Shown here: in pieces, positions 1,781-16,939 of the stretch
Layout: every line of letters starts with the position of its first letter
How positions within the stretch are numbered: position 1 is the stretch's first letter
From: Ignavibacteria bacterium CG2_30_36_16
Lineage (GTDB): Bacteria > Bacteroidota > Ignavibacteria > Ignavibacteriales > Ignavibacteriaceae
Reading direction: 5' to 3'
Assembly (NCBI GenBank): GCA_001873185.1
Contig: MNYQ01000204.1
Location: forward strand, 1 to 38,185
Length of the DNA: 38,185 bases
The notes under the pieces: generated by a model
Told to the model about the DNA's origin: nothing
Database searches by the model: none
The model's input: only the letters and a program-made list of their open reading frames with translations
Translations under genes and position numbers: made by a program

Positions 1781-3867
1781 ACAACATCAAATCAACAGTT
1801 ATATTTCTTTTAATAATGTGCAGCTGTATTGCCGCTCAATCTGATTCTCTCCCAAAATTTACATTGGACAACATCATAGTTACTGCCGACAAAGTTTCGT
1901 CAAATCTTTTACTATCAACAGGTGCGGTATCTACAATTTCCGGAGAAGAAATAAAAGCATTTACACTATACGAGTTGAGTAAATCGTTGGCGCTTGTCCC
2001 CGGAATAAATTCTTACAGTGTTAACGGCATGGGAGGAGGTACAACGACCACATTAAGAGGATTTTATGGAGGCGGAGAAGCAGATTATATTTTGCTTATG
2101 CTCGACGGACGTACTTTAAACAGATTCGAATCCGGAATAGTTGATTGGAATATAATGCCGCTCTCGGCTCTCGAATCAGTTGAATTTGTTAAAGGAGGAA
2201 TCTCATCATTATACGGCGACGCTGCTATTGGAGGTGTTGTAAATCTCAGAACAAAAAACTCAAACATCAACAGCACAACTGTTCGCACAGTATTTGGAAG
2301 CTATAAATATTTTAACGGACAAATATCTTCAAACGGAAAACTAAACAGCGGAAACTATAACATATATTTTTATAGAAATCAGTATGAAGGTTTTAGGGGT
2401 CATTCCAAACAGGTTGCGCACTCTCTTGGAGGAATCATTCCATTATTTAAAAACCATGAATTTAATTTATCTGCTTCTCTACTTAACAATTGGAAAAATG
2501 AAGATAAGCCGGGCGTATTAACCGGCGAACAGACAGAAGCCGACAGAAATATTTCTTCACCATTCTTCGGCAGCGACAATAGAACATCGAGAATTAATAG
2601 CGGGGATATTAAAATTGAATATACTCCAAATAGTTTTTTAGAATTAAATGCAGCTATCGGCGGAGAGTATAACCGAGTTAACGATATCACCACGTTTTTG
2701 TTATCACCATTTTTTGCCGATACAAAAAACCGGGAATATCAGTACACTCGCTATTTTGGCAGTATGCTTTCAAACTATAAATTAAATTCTTTTCTTGGTT
2801 CGGAGTTATTGCTTGGCGCCGAAATATCTACCGGCAAAATTACAAACACTTACTACAATTTTTTATCGGGTGATATTAATGCTTATGAAATTGCGCGTCC
2901 GCAGCGGGGCACTCTGGATGAGAACGGAGAAGGAAGAAGAACTTCCGCAGCAGCATTTATTCAGTTTAATATGTCGCCGATAAATAATTTAAAAATTAGT
3001 CTCGGGGGAAGATATGATCAAATAAATGATTCCTATTCAAGTTTGACTACGGGTGCAGAGAAATCATTTTCAAGTAAAAAAAATGCTATGAGCCCGAAGG
3101 CAGGATTCAATTACAGATTTGCTAATAATGTAAATTACATTGCCAGTATTTATGCAAGTCTTAGCGGCTCTTTTAAAGCTCCTACGATGGATCAACTATT
3201 TGACCAAAGATCTTACCCGGCGCCATTCGAACCTTACAAAATTCTTTTATCCAACAACCTTCTTCAGCCGCAAAAATCTTTAAATATAGAAGCCGGTATG
3301 TACCAGGGTTTTGTGGTTGGAAAACATTTACGATTCGAAGTGTCAACATCAGCATATCAAATAAAGATGAAAGATGAAATTGACTTTGACATAATGCAGT
3401 TTAAGTATGTAAACATCGGTAAAAGTACGCACATAGGATTGGAAGCCGGAGTTAAAATATTTTATTCTGATTTTATTTCTTCATTCTTTAACTATTCTTA
3501 TCAGGAAGCAAAAGCTGCAAACGGATCTTACGAAGGGAAAAAGTTAAAAGGAATACCGGCTCAGTCCATCAACGGAGGTGTTGCATATAACGTGGTAAAA
3601 AACTTTACAGCATCAATGATGATGAAACATACAGCGGGGATTTTTATTGACGATGAAAATTTAATACAACTTCCATCGTTCACTACTTTTGATGCATCAT
3701 TGCGCTATAGTTTTTATCAATTTAACTTTTCACTCTCTTCGGAAAATATTTTTGATAAAAAGTTTAATGCAAATGGTTACATTGATCCCTCCGGCACGCC
3801 CGGTTTTATTTATTACTATCCTGCCGCCGGAAGAAGAATAAATTTTTCTGTCGAGGTTAATATCTAA
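1777..3867 (+). CDS. TonB-dependent outer-membrane receptor (first)
   Basis: A 696-residue outer-membrane receptor that imports a large or scarce ligand using TonB energy. It has a signal peptide (1-20, ending IAAQ), a TonB-box-like strand (LDNIIVTADKV, about 30-40), a plug domain (about 42-155) with the LSKSLALVPGI, TLRGFYGGG, LMLDGRTLN and SVEFVKGG-SSLYGDAAIGGVVNL signatures, then a beta-barrel ending in ENIFDKKF and an aromatic-rich last strand. It lacks the N-terminal carboxypeptidase-regulatory domain and SusD partner of SusC systems, so it resembles siderophore/cobalamin/metal-type receptors more than glycan receptors. It overlaps the YdjY gene by 4 bp and the next receptor by 1 bp. The ligand is not determinable from sequence. 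Confidence 0.93.
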   Translation: MNNIKSTVIFLLIMCSCIAAQSDSLPKFTLDNIIVTADKVSSNLLLSTGAVSTISGEEIKAFTLYELSKSLALVPGINSYSVNGMGGGTTTTLRGFYGGGEADYILLMLDGRTLNRFESGIVDWNIMPLSALESVEFVKGGISSLYGDAAIGGVVNLRTKNSNINSTTVRTVFGSYKYFNGQISSNGKLNSGNYNIYFYRNQYEGFRGHSKQVAHSLGGIIPLFKNHEFNLSASLLNNWKNEDKPGVLTGEQTEADRNISSPFFGSDNRTSRINSGDIKIEYTPNSFLELNAAIGGEYNRVNDITTFLLSPFFADTKNREYQYTRYFGSMLSNYKLNSFLGSELLLGAEISTGKITNTYYNFLSGDINAYEIARPQRGTLDENGEGRRTSAAAFIQFNMSPINNLKISLGGRYDQINDSYSSLTTGAEKSFSSKKNAMSPKAGFNYRFANNVNYIASIYASLSGSFKAPTMDQLFDQRSYPAPFEPYKILLSNNLLQPQKSLNIEAGMYQGFVVGKHLRFEVSTSAYQIKMKDEIDFDIMQFKYVNIGKSTHIGLEAGVKIFYSDFISSFFNYSYQEAKAANGSYEGKKLKGIPAQSINGGVAYNVVKNFTASMMMKHTAGIFIDDENLIQLPSFTTFDASLRYSFYQFNFSLSSENIFDKKFNANGYIDPSGTPGFIYYYPAAGRRINFSVEVNI

Positions 3868-11727: not shown

Positions 11728-12825
11728 ATGGCTGCACAATCAAAAGTTAGAAGGATAGGCGTGCTTACCGGCGGAGGCGATTGCCCCGGATTAAACGCAG
11801 TTATTCGCGGCGTAACTAAACCTGCTCAAGATTATGGTATGACCGTTTATGGAATAATAGACGGCTTTGAAGGCTTGGTTGAAGGAAGGGCAATTGAACT
11901 TAAAAATGAAGATGTATCCGGAATTTTAGCCCGCGGAGGAACAATATTAGGCTCTTCAAATAAAGCAGACCCATGGCACTATCCCGTTGAAAAAGACGGA
12001 CAGATTGTAATTACGGATAAATCCAAAGAAGTAGTTAGGAATTACAATGCCTGGAATCTCGATGCTCTAATAGCTATTGGCGGCGACGGAACAATGCACA
12101 TTTGTAATAAACTTCAACAACTTGGCGTTAACGTTATTGGTGTGCCAAAAACTATAGATAATGATCTTGATGCTACTGATCTTACTTTCGGACATGACTC
12201 AGCGGTTTTTGTTGTGTCTGAAGCACTTGACAGACTTCACACAACGGCTTCTTCGCATCATCGGGTTATTGTTGTAGAAGTTATGGGGCGCTACGCTGGC
12301 TGGATTGCGTTGAATGGTGGTTTGGCAGGCGGGGCAGACATTATACTCATTCCCGAATTTCCTTTTAGCTGGGAAAAAATTTATGATAAAATTCTCAAAC
12401 GTCAATTGATGGGAAAAAAATTCAGTTTGGTTTGCGTAGCTGAAGGAGCAAAGCCGATTGATGGTGAAATGGTAATCAAAAGTTCCGATTTGAAACGCCA
12501 CGATCCTAATCAACTTGGCGGAATTGCTGAAGTTGTAGCGAGAAAAATTGAAGAAAACACCGGGCGCGAAACAAGAGTAACCGTACTCGGTCACTTACAG
12601 CGAGGCGGCAGCCCGACGCCTTTTGATAGAATTCTTTCAACCAAATTTGGTGCATTTGCTATTGAGTTAGCAGCGCAAAAGAAATTTGGCAGGATGGTTG
12701 CATTAAAAGGAAGTGAAGTAAAAAACGTTAAAATTGAAGATGCAATCTCAAAACGAAAATTAGTAAAGCCCGATACTCAGGCTGTTTTTGCAGCCAGGGC
12801 TGTAGGGATATCGTTCGGCGTTTAA
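11728..12825 (+). CDS. pfkA: 6-phosphofructokinase (mixed-substrate/group III type)
   Basis: Phosphorylates fructose 6-phosphate to fructose 1,6-bisphosphate in glycolysis. The 365-residue length and motifs fit the PFK family: GVLTGGGDCPGLNAVIRG (11-28), GGDGTM (118-123), PKTIDNDL (140-147), the MGRYAGWIAL substrate segment and LGHLQRGGSPTPFDR near the C-terminus. The residue pair that predicts the phosphoryl donor is mixed: Gly in GGDGT (as in ATP enzymes, E. coli Gly104) but Lys in PKTIDND (as in PPi enzymes, E. coli Gly124). Group III enzymes combine these and those studied mostly use ATP, so ATP is the expected donor. The gene is monocistronic; the start ATG has a weak AAGGCAA-type ribosome site 10 bases upstream. 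Confidence 0.95.
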   Translation: MAAQSKVRRIGVLTGGGDCPGLNAVIRGVTKPAQDYGMTVYGIIDGFEGLVEGRAIELKNEDVSGILARGGTILGSSNKADPWHYPVEKDGQIVITDKSKEVVRNYNAWNLDALIAIGGDGTMHICNKLQQLGVNVIGVPKTIDNDLDATDLTFGHDSAVFVVSEALDRLHTTASSHHRVIVVEVMGRYAGWIALNGGLAGGADIILIPEFPFSWEKIYDKILKRQLMGKKFSLVCVAEGAKPIDGEMVIKSSDLKRHDPNQLGGIAEVVARKIEENTGRETRVTVLGHLQRGGSPTPFDRILSTKFGAFAIELAAQKKFGRMVALKGSEVKNVKIEDAISKRKLVKPDTQAVFAARAVGISFGV

Positions 12826-12888
12826 AAAAAGAAAAGTTCTATTTACCATCTTGCATTTAGAGATGTCGTAGCATATATTTGGCATCGC

Positions 12889-12919: not shown

Positions 12920-12998
12920 GGGGTCGTAGTTCAGTTAGTTAGCACGTCCCGTAATTTCGGGAAGGACGCGACAGTACTTAAAATTTTGTTTTTTTTTC
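12920..12998 (+). repeat. degenerate tRNA-Asp-like unit 1
   Basis: The first of three tandem units upstream of the intact tRNA-Asp. Bases 12920-12944 reproduce the 5' acceptor strand and D arm of tRNA-Asp (GGGGTCGTAGTTCAG, with two changes in the D loop). The anticodon arm is replaced by a 5-bp stem TCCCG/CGGGA with a 6-base loop TAATTT and no Asp anticodon. The variable-region-like AGGACG follows, but the T arm and 3' acceptor strand are absent. The rest of the unit is an AT-rich spacer with TTAAAATTTTG and a T run. Confidence 0.8.
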
Positions 12999-13080
12999 GG
13001 GGTCGTAGTTTAGTTAGTTAGCACGTCCCGTAATTTCGGGAAGGTCGCAGTCAGTCATAAAAATTTTATTTTTTAATTTC
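12999..13080 (+). repeat. degenerate tRNA-Asp-like unit 2
   Basis: The second unit, 79 bases after the first. It has the same acceptor 5' strand and D arm (one further change, GTTTAG for GTTCAG), the same TCCCG-TAATTT-CGGGA hairpin and AGGTCG, exactly the variable-region sequence of the intact tRNA. It then loses homology (CAGTCAGTCAT) and runs into an AT-rich spacer. Confidence 0.8.
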
Positions 13081-13159
13081 GGGGTCGTAGCTCAGTTAGT
13101 TAGCACGTCCCGACATTTCGGGAAGGTCGCGATAGTACTTAAAATTTTGTTTTTTTTTC
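13081..13159 (+). repeat. degenerate tRNA-Asp-like unit 3
   Basis: The third unit, 82 bases after the second and 79 before the true tRNA. The D arm reads GCTCAGTTAGTTAGC, which restores a perfect 4-bp D stem. The substituted anticodon-like hairpin has loop ACATTT instead of TAATTT while the stem TCCCG/CGGGA is unchanged. AGGTCG is followed by CGATAGTACTTAAAATTTTG, matching the spacer of unit 1. Confidence 0.8.
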
Positions 13160-13233
13160 GGGGTCGTAGTTCAGCTGGTTAGAACGCCTGCCTGTCACGC
13201 AGGAGGTCGAGGGTTCGAGTCCCTTCGGCCCCG
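13160..13233 (+). tRNA. tRNA-Asp (anticodon GTC)
   Basis: A complete 74-base tRNA. Acceptor GGGGTCG (13160-13166) pairs with CGGCCCC (13226-13232), including one T-G pair. The D arm is GTTCAGCTGGTTAGAAC. The anticodon stem CCTGC/GCAGG holds loop CTGTCAC with anticodon GTC (13194-13196). Variable region AGGTC and T arm GAGGG-TTCGAGT-CCCTT follow, and the discriminator is G (13233), as expected for Asp. CCA is not encoded. Confidence 0.96.
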
Positions 13234-13239
13234 CTTAGT

Positions 13240-13281
13240 AAAGCCTTGTAGCTTAAGAAGTTACAAGGCTTTGTTGTTTTA
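13240..13281 (+). terminator. intrinsic terminator after tRNA-Asp
   Basis: AAAGCCTTGTA (13240-13250) pairs with TACAAGGCTTT (13262-13272) around an 11-base loop, followed by GTTGTTTT. It starts 6 bases after the tRNA and is a convincing 11-bp terminator. Confidence 0.9.
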
Positions 13282-13834
13282 AAGAGAAGTAAAGGGTAAC
13301 AAATTTTCCCGTATTTTTAAGTTGTAAGTTTCTTAAACCCAGATTTCTCCATAGCCAAAAATTTTTAATGACCGCCATTAGAAAAAAGTTGTGCTAAGTT
13401 GTTTGAAGTTAATAAGGTAAACTTTTAGTTTCTATTGAAATACTTCCTTTTTTTAGTAAGAAAAGCATACACGAAGATGGAATTAAAAATAGAGTTCACC
13501 GGCGAAGTTGTCCGTTAGCTAACGGATGAATTTTGAATGAAACGCAATCCCGCTTGCGGGAAAAATATCTTGACATAAAAAACAATCCCGCATGCGGGAT
13601 AAAAATCAATACTATAAATGGGATTTTCCGGCTCATAAGAATTAGTTCCTTTTTCATCCTTTTGATTGATTGAAATGATCGATACTTCTTTATAAATTAA
13701 TATTAAGAATATAAAACAAGCAAGAGTAAAATTTCTTGTTTAATTCGAAATTGTTATGATTAATTTCCGAAAAGAATAGTCCGATTTATTCTTTTTAGAA
13801 CGGGTTATTTATTATTAATTAAAAAGGATTTGTT
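13282..13834. other. gene-free region with short perfect palindromes
   Basis: No gene is visible. Three short palindromes lie within 91 bases: TCCGTTAGCTAACGGA (13511-13526, perfect), AATCCCGCTTGCGGGA (about 13546-13561) and AATCCCGCATGCGGGAT (about 13584-13600). The last two share their arms and are spaced 38 bases apart. A related TCCGTTA/TAACGGA palindrome recurs at 14833-14850, so these look like dispersed REP-like elements. The dodecin promoter must lie in the last 150 bases. Confidence 0.6.
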
Positions 13835-14832: not shown

Positions 14833-14850
14833 ATCCGTTAACTAACGGAT
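14833..14850. repeat. REP-like palindrome
   Basis: ATCCGTTA, two bases, then TAACGGAT: 8-bp perfect arms. It is almost the same as the palindrome at 13511-13526 and marks a second copy of a dispersed element on the other side of the dodecin/cytochrome genes. Confidence 0.55.
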
Positions 14851-15887: not shown

Positions 15888-16352
15888 ATGAAAGATGTAA
15901 ATAAATTACTTATGATCGAGCAATTGGATAAAAAGCTTGCAAAATACGCTCAAATCGAAGCTGATTTAGTCCCACGGGGTGGTTGGATAAAAGCAATTCG
16001 GACATCTATGAATATCTCTCTGCTTCAGCTTGCAAAAATATTAAAAAAGTCTTCACCGACGGTTAAAGAATTGGAAGAGCGTGAAGCAGAAAAGAATATT
16101 ACACTTAAAAAGTTAGCTGAAGTTGGTGAGGCTTTGAACCTGAGATTAGTGTATGGTTTCGTTCCCAAAGATGGTACGCTTGAAAGGATTATTGAAAAGC
16201 GTGCCTACAGCATTGCGAAAGAAATAGTAATGAGAACTTCACACACTATGAAACTTGAAGACCAGGAAAACTCAGAAGAACGTTTAAGAAAAGCGATTAA
16301 AGACAGAGCAGAAAACATTAAAAACGAATTGCCGAAATATTTATGGGATTAG
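15888..16352 (+). CDS. mobile mystery protein A (HTH regulator/antitoxin-like)
   Basis: A 154-residue protein matching the mobile mystery protein A family: an N-terminal LLMIEQLDKKLAKY helix, PRGGWIKAIRTSMNIS, then a Cro/C1-type HTH (LLQLAKILKKSSPTVKELEEREAEKNITLKKLAEVGEAL, about residues 43-82), LVYGFVPKDGTLERII and a helical tail. The family is always found with protein B (Fic) on mobile or defence-rich DNA, and is thought to regulate it or neutralise it as an antitoxin. It overlaps the B gene by 10 bp. AAGGA (15874-15878) precedes the ATG. Repression through the palindromes upstream is inferred. Confidence 0.88.
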   Translation: MKDVNKLLMIEQLDKKLAKYAQIEADLVPRGGWIKAIRTSMNISLLQLAKILKKSSPTVKELEEREAEKNITLKKLAEVGEALNLRLVYGFVPKDGTLERIIEKRAYSIAKEIVMRTSHTMKLEDQENSEERLRKAIKDRAENIKNELPKYLWD

Positions 16353-16939
16353 ATCTCGATTATACAGATGGTCAAACTCCTCTTGATGAGGATGAAAAGG
16401 ACGGATTGTTAATCCCAACAATTACAACTCGTGGTGATTTGGATGAGTTTGAACAGCTTGGCGTTGAAAAAACAAATGAATGGCTGCTTACGAAAAAGTT
16501 TAGTACAGATAAAATTCTATCTGAAGAGTTTGTTAGAGATTTACATAAACGAATGTTTGCAGATATCTGGAGATGGGCTGGCGAATTCAGAAAAACAGAA
16601 AAGAATATCGGAGTTGATCCGGTTACTATTCCAATTCAACTGAGAAATCTGCTTGATGATTGCGAATACTGGATTGATAATAAAGTTTTTGATGAAGATG
16701 AAATCGCTGTGAGATTAAGTCATCGAATGGTATCTATTCATCCTTTTGCAAACGGTAACGGAAGGAATTCGCGTTTAATGGCTGATGTTTTAGCAAATAA
16801 AGGATTTGGCAAACCATTTTTTACCTGGGGAAGCGTTAATCTTACTAAACAAGGTGAAGCGAGAAACAAATATTTATATGCATTACGAGCTGCTGATCAG
16901 CACGATTATCAAGCTTTAATAGAATTTGCGAGATTATAA
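16343..16939 (+). CDS. mobile mystery protein B (Fic-domain protein)
   Basis: A 198-residue Fic-domain protein. Residues about 55-190 hold the Fic fold with the catalytic loop HPFANGNGRNSRL (HPFxxGNGRxxR, about 133-145), preceded by FVRDLHKRMFADIWRWAGEFR. The N-terminus GLDLDYTDGQTPLDEDEKDGL is the signature of mobile mystery protein B. Fic enzymes transfer AMP or related groups onto target proteins; all loop residues needed for that are present, so the protein is probably active. No inhibitory (S/T)xxxE(G/N) helix is obvious, so control most likely comes from partner A, with which it overlaps by 10 bp. Confidence 0.9.
   Translation: MGLDLDYTDGQTPLDEDEKDGLLIPTITTRGDLDEFEQLGVEKTNEWLLTKKFSTDKILSEEFVRDLHKRMFADIWRWAGEFRKTEKNIGVDPVTIPIQLRNLLDDCEYWIDNKVFDEDEIAVRLSHRMVSIHPFANGNGRNSRLMADVLANKGFGKPFFTWGSVNLTKQGEARNKYLYALRAADQHDYQALIEFARL

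Follow-up and report, generated by a model that had tools for sequence, protein, structure and literature searches.

The locus studied here raises the question of why three truncated tRNA-Asp copies, in which a hairpin occupies the place of the anticodon arm, stand in tandem in front of an intact tRNA-Asp gene. They lie on a stretch of 38,185 nucleotides of an incomplete metagenome-assembled genome, which was analyzed as a whole and is called the window below. All features of the locus are on the forward strand. The 6-phosphofructokinase gene pfkA (positions 11728 to 12825; NCBIfam TIGR02483, E 3.7e-134), a conserved upstream neighbor that precedes tRNA-Asp in relatives too, is followed by a putative promoter of the tRNA-Asp unit at 12851 to 12881, consisting of TTG (12851-12853) and TATATTTG (12874-12881). 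Motifs of the form TTG...TAnnTTT belong to the Bacteroidota promoter type. A scan with the E. coli-type sigma-70 consensus gave no site at the tRNA-Asp unit. Three units of 79, 82 and 79 bases (12920 to 12998, 12999 to 13080 and 13081 to 13159) lead up to the intact tRNA-Asp(gtc) at 13160 to 13234 (ARAGORN; Rfam RF00005, 70.8 bits), which confirms the arrangement described by a first-pass annotation of the DNA. Just 3' of the tRNA, an inverted repeat at 13240 to 13272, whose 15-nt arms are 93% complementary, is the probable end of the transcription unit; it was not among the output of the terminator scan.

Each unit is composed of a tRNA-Asp 5' half, the swapped arm and an AT-rich spacer, and none contains an ORF. 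The 5' acceptor strand and the D-arm region are retained in all three units, and a 16-base palindrome, TCCCG-N6-CGGGA, replaces the 17-base anticodon arm exactly to the base. Its sequence is TCCCGTAATTTCGGGA in unit 1 (12947 to 12962) and unit 2 (13026 to 13041) and TCCCGACATTTCGGGA in unit 3 (13108 to 13123). The pattern TCCCG(6)CGGGA occurs three times in the whole window, each time within a unit, while none is expected from shuffled sequences. The first-pass annotation had recognized the retained parts and the swap, but some details had to be corrected. The six-base loop that it gave to every hairpin does not suit unit 3, which is better read as a stem of 6 bp with a four-base loop. The motif AGGTCG behind the hairpin, taken to be universal, is present in units 2 and 3 and reads AGGACG in unit 1. 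The T arm and the 3' acceptor are missing as claimed, except that a remnant of the T stem, CGCGA, survives in units 1 and 3. Since this remnant fits the T stem of relatives' tRNA-Asp (GCGAG) and mismatches that of the genome's present tRNA-Asp (GAGGG), these two units seem to be relics of an earlier tRNA-Asp. No unit has an intact D stem, as GCAC replaces the GAAC of the tRNA and turns pair 12-23 into T.C. The D-stem repair claimed for unit 3 did not stand up to inspection by hand: its GCTC/GCAC loses pair 11-24 in addition to 12-23, making it the most broken of the three. None of the units was called a tRNA by ARAGORN or Rfam, none has a cloverleaf with acceptor and T stem, and RNA folding was no better than that of shuffles. 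A search of the own genome with the array did not reveal a second close copy except the tRNA itself.

The array was also used as a query against 59 related genomes. Related arrays exist before tRNA-Asp in several genera, comprising three units in G057, two in G031, five in G026 and two in G038, and further ones, among others, with two units in G020, one each in G010 and G088, and two in G099. Their hairpin sequences vary between genomes yet remain paired. Within one genus the tRNA-Asp site contains five units (G026), one unit (G088) or a decayed remnant (G087), and it is empty in three further genomes (G085, G086, G089). A TTG-N16..23-TAnnTTT motif is situated directly 5' of tRNA-Asp at empty sites and 5' of the array at most occupied ones. 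The position of this motif places the units inside the tRNA-Asp transcription unit, where they are probably part of the 5' leader and, given the conserved promoter motif upstream, likely to be transcribed. An assembly artefact was excluded, as similar arrays are present in the single-contig genomes of G026, G088 and G020 and in isolates such as Pseudochryseolinea flava and several Flavobacterium.

The units are not restricted to positions before tRNA-Asp, as the first-pass annotation had asked; other tRNA genes are involved, on their 3' side as well. About 70 arm-swapped copies were detected beside Asp, Pro, Ala, Gly, Val, Ile, Met and Arg tRNA genes of Ignavibacteria and Bacteroidota, closed genomes and isolates included. 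The own genome harbors swapped-arm halves at tRNA-Gly, and others were found elsewhere at tRNA-Pro, Val and Ile. A search that required a hairpin, from which real tRNAs had been removed, yielded 71 copies at 44 loci, and both junctions were base-exact in 59 of them. A second search anchored on the flanking tRNA sequence only, in which no hairpin was required, gave 80 copies; 63 of these possess at least five outer pairs, and the arm is 15 to 18 nt long in 70. The stem also covaries between genomes, a check proposed in the first-pass annotation: in 28 diverse rows, pre-selected as hairpins, all seven pairs changed on both sides and pairing was 96.9%, a value reached by none of 500 shuffles. Several of the swapped arms have TTCG-type loops. 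Eleven of 33 copies of the 5' side end exactly after the T-loop GTTC, several others are interrupted by palindromes at the same position, and 3'-side copies lack the 5' half instead. ORF-less arrays have unit periods of 77 to 130 bp with no cargo between the copies. In one of them, L181 (G088:C1:1234254-1235107), eleven units, each about 81 bp long and lacking an ORF, precede tRNA-Val; their hairpin core, CCGACTATGTCGG, is shared by the tRNA-Asp unit of G088, which suggests that a hairpin was transferred between the two tRNA loci. Arm-swapped tRNA-Pro copies were miscalled by ARAGORN as tRNA-Ser(gga) (L087, 2392-2468) and tRNA-Cys(aca) (L117, 2734-2804), which means that automatic annotations of these loci may contain spurious tRNA genes.

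Many arm-swapped units carry a small gene on the same strand, whose product of 80 to 90 residues (about 85) is a GIY-YIG nuclease. It was found in some of the tRNA-Pro units. At tRNA-Pro(cgg) of the own genome (L069, G000:C184), an ORF-bearing unit adjoins an ORF-less one with the identical hairpin TCCCGATTGATCGGGA; the ORF encodes a GIY-YIG domain (PF01541, E 9e-17), which the ORF-less window units do not. A mixed array of ORF-less and ORF-bearing units also lies 3' of tRNA-Pro in P. flava (L094). Through these mixed arrays, the short window units are connected to the element that carries the nuclease. At tRNA-Asp, nuclease genes were identified in five genomes of the order (G016, G010, G027, G099, G118), and at some of these loci (L144, L019) the tRNA stands between the nuclease and an ORF-less array. 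The complete tRNA-Asp elements found in the order have the nuclease 3' of the tRNA, whereas the window array is located 5'. The only 5'-side tRNA-Asp element with an ORF came from a Sphingobacteriales MAG (L096), and it has a D-loop palindrome, not an arm swap.

A scan of GTDB genomes was seeded with three nuclease proteins only. A tRNA gene on the same strand was present within 500 bp at 38 of 54 loci, mostly within 110 bp; rough arithmetic with some 43 tRNA genes in 3.6 Mb gives a chance of about 2%. The strand was the same at every tRNA-linked locus, and many loci have partial tRNA copies on the far side. Of the remaining 16 loci, many are truncated by contig ends or derive from CPR bacteria; several of the latter indicate that not all nuclease relatives are of the tRNA type. 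Two layouts occur, either a 5' half, the nuclease and the intact tRNA, or the intact tRNA, the nuclease and a 3' part. In the latter, the nuclease gene often uses the TAG of the copy's D loop as its stop codon (e.g., L095, L115, L112). On viral contigs, three distant nuclease relatives were found, none of them near a tRNA. At L098 (2440-2870), a full-length pseudo-tRNA with a swapped arm is apparently interrupted in its T arm by a tRNA-Ile element, which brings a nuclease and an intact tRNA-Ile with a different acceptor sequence; about 36 bp are duplicated there, possibly a target-site duplication. Another small GIY-YIG subfamily is represented in the own genome at L058 (G000:C235, about 3546-3767), with no tRNA nearby. 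Inverted GTCATTGCGAG...GCAATCT repeats lie on both sides of that gene, and TCCCGATTTATCGGG is part of one of them; this may be a second partnership of palindrome and nuclease.

To relate nucleases, hosts and hairpins, a tree of 43 proteins (86 columns) was used, some branches of which are weakly supported. On this tree, clades mix Ignavibacteriota, Bacteroidota and Omnitrophota, and the tRNA isotype required 13 changes, compared to 22.3 on average after shuffling (none of 200 shuffles was as low), so that the lineage follows its specific target location, as is typical of homing endonucleases. One entry, L087, had been labeled tRNA-Ser(gga) in this test and is the miscalled tRNA-Pro copy mentioned above; its correction is expected to strengthen the clustering. 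The hairpin class, assigned by eye, changed five times compared to 17.0 in shuffles (0 of 200). Thus, the hairpin behaves more like an inherited part of the element than like a random insertion. Patchy occupancy, empty sites in close relatives and spread across host lineages, which also characterize homing endonucleases, were observed as well.

We further compared the spacers of ORF-less units with the nuclease genes. The spacer of G031 matches GIY-YIG 3' ends (0 of 300 shuffles as high) and is the only convincing ORF remnant. Weak traces were seen in G088 and in unit 2 of the window, where two of 300 shuffles scored as high and the spacer was one of nine tested; the remaining spacers gave no significant trace. 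Neither a nuclease gene nor a clear remnant is present in the window, and the link of its units to the nuclease therefore rests on shared architecture. That the window units belong with the nuclease element, whose architecture recurs in at least two phyla, is nevertheless well supported.

The three units are likely to be copies, degenerate or non-autonomous and without the nuclease, of a mobile element that resides at tRNA genes and resembles homing endonucleases. A complete unit contains a partial copy of the host tRNA, the lineage-typical hairpin as anticodon arm and the small GIY-YIG gene on the same strand, with the intact tRNA standing before or after it. The nuclease would cut a tRNA gene, and recombinational repair between tRNA copies would install the element and spare one intact tRNA. 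Later unequal exchange would expand the unit in tandem, by analogy with SegB at phage tRNA genes, and loss of the ORF would leave short units as in the window, where the ORF was lost or never present. As the swapped hairpin removes the anticodon, the extra copy could not act as a tRNA. Probably it belongs to the nuclease as a mark, be it a version of the target that cannot be cleaved or a structure on which the enzyme acts. Units in the tRNA-Asp leader are probably transcribed and would then be discarded during tRNA processing. We also thought of a nuclease acting on folded, cruciform or single-stranded arms of tRNA genes and exchanging whole stem-loops, so that the swapped copies are recombination sites. 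The anticodon arm would be excised exactly at the stem base and the nuclease's cognate hairpin put in. This proposal is doubtful; if true, it would be a mechanism of DNA mobility based on stem-loop exchange in tRNA genes.

Palindromes of the kind found in the units are also dispersed in the genomes. TCCCG(4-10)CGGGA gave 22 to 160 matches per strand versus 0 to 5 in the reversed control, and the class CCTGCC..GGCAGG was likewise enriched in three of five genomes. At three loci (L114, L103, L097) a palindrome has simply entered a tRNA loop and nothing has been lost, and the units within one array are near-identical. All this would agree with an explanation that needs no nuclease: an ordinary tandem duplication of the tRNA-Asp 5' half, into which a REP-like palindrome was inserted once before slippage multiplied the product. 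The alternative of the first-pass annotation, repeated insertion of a palindromic element into amplified tRNA copies, comes close to the reading favored here; the arm indeed is a palindrome, but the connection to a GIY-YIG nuclease was missed. Its argument that three copies sharing one hairpin speak against random decay is weak, because tandem amplification after a single swap suffices; stronger evidence is that exact swaps have occurred repeatedly, with hairpins that differ and at various tRNAs. Duplication and insertion leave these dozens of base-exact swaps unexplained, as well as the nuclease genes on the same strand and the hairpin class that tracks nuclease phylogeny across phyla. Moreover, the class TGGCGC..GCGCCA is hardly dispersed in three of four carriers tested and mostly confined to tRNA copies (the exception being G165). 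We therefore regard this explanation as largely contradicted and unlikely. In the window, two TCCGTTANNTAACGGA palindromes (13511-13526 and 14834-14849) and two TCCCGC..GCGGGA palindromes (13548-13561 and 13586-13599) are located 3' of tRNA-Asp, none of either family being expected from shuffles; members of the TCCGTTANNTAACGGA family are also found in tRNA copies of G020, where they occupy the D loop. Near the tRNA-Asp gene, at 15888-16939, lies a gene pair for mobile mystery proteins A (TIGR02612) and B (Fic domain, TIGR02613), likely a mobile pair of toxin-antitoxin type.

Functional tRNA-like RNAs, or decoys that bind RNase P, RNase Z or aspartyl-tRNA synthetase, had been favored in the first-pass annotation; regulation of tRNA-Asp maturation would be a role of the same kind. 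The promoter motif upstream of the array, compensatory changes that keep the swapped arm paired, and the TTCG-type loops would suit such a role. It found no support in the units themselves, which have broken D stems, do not contain the 3' half that tRNA processing requires and did not exceed shuffles in folding; the patchy presence of units among sister species, 3'-side copies without a 5' half and ORF-bearing versions of the unit likewise speak against it, and we judge it quite improbable. Finally, integration into tRNA genes is classic for mobile elements, whose ends are marked by partial tRNA copies. Tandem attachment-site remnants of integrase-driven elements using a tRNA attB are still highly improbable here: the ORF-less periods are short and enclose no cargo, the GIY-YIG nuclease is the sole associated gene, and attL/attR pairs would account neither for copies on the 5' side nor for the exact arm swap.

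A nuclease-bearing element appears to be widespread in Bacteroidota and Ignavibacteria and is apparently undescribed; no published account was found in the literature, mostly of open-access journals, on GIY-YIG, tRNA, palindromes, these taxa or tRNA-like tandem repeats. Being essential and nearly invariant, tRNA genes are attractive targets for selfish DNA. The loci suggest a very small bacterial element composed of a nuclease of about 85 residues and a doctored tRNA copy, with one tRNA left intact. It would give a context to small GIY-YIG proteins, which usually are annotated without a role, and explain tandem pseudo-tRNA arrays miscalled tRNA-Ser(GGA) or tRNA-Cys(ACA). It also raises the question of the reason for a base-exact arm swap with a hairpin coinherited with the nuclease.

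Among known systems, integrative elements that target tRNA genes also leave one intact gene and partial copies. In contrast, no integrase or cargo was present at the loci read here, the units comprise a few hundred bp at most and the copies lie on either side. Like REP/REPIN sequences and their RAYT, the element combines short palindromes with a small nuclease-like gene and spreads as non-autonomous units, but the enzyme is of the GIY-YIG and not of the Y1 HUH transposase type, and the palindrome has a fixed place inside a tRNA copy. By sequence, the closest solved relatives of the nuclease are single-domain GIY-YIG proteins of the UPF0213 and SLX1 types (1ywl, 1zg2 and SLX1 6seh), which, unlike the enzyme proposed here, either act in repair as structure-specific nucleases or have no known function. 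For the terms searched in a survey of the GIY-YIG superfamily, no mention of UPF0213 or of an association with tRNA genes was found (PMC1564403). The nearest system, judged by its description and GIY-YIG domain, is SegB of the phages T4 and T6, a free-standing homing endonuclease of the GIY-YIG type encoded at tRNA genes, for which tandem growth together with tRNA-Tyr was demonstrated in T6 (PMC13096335). Both systems have a GIY-YIG gene beside tRNA genes and tandem repeats of tRNA and nuclease. The reported cut motif of SegB, RAWTSGAAC (PMC13096335), is the reverse complement of the T-loop-like GTTCSAWTY, and in our loci the T-loop GTTC is the point directly behind which many 5' copies stop and several palindromes have entered. 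What sets the element apart from SegB is its residence on bacterial chromosomes, the nuclease of only 80 to 90 residues, the arm-swapped partial tRNAs, the hairpin inherited with the nuclease and the many units that contain no ORF.
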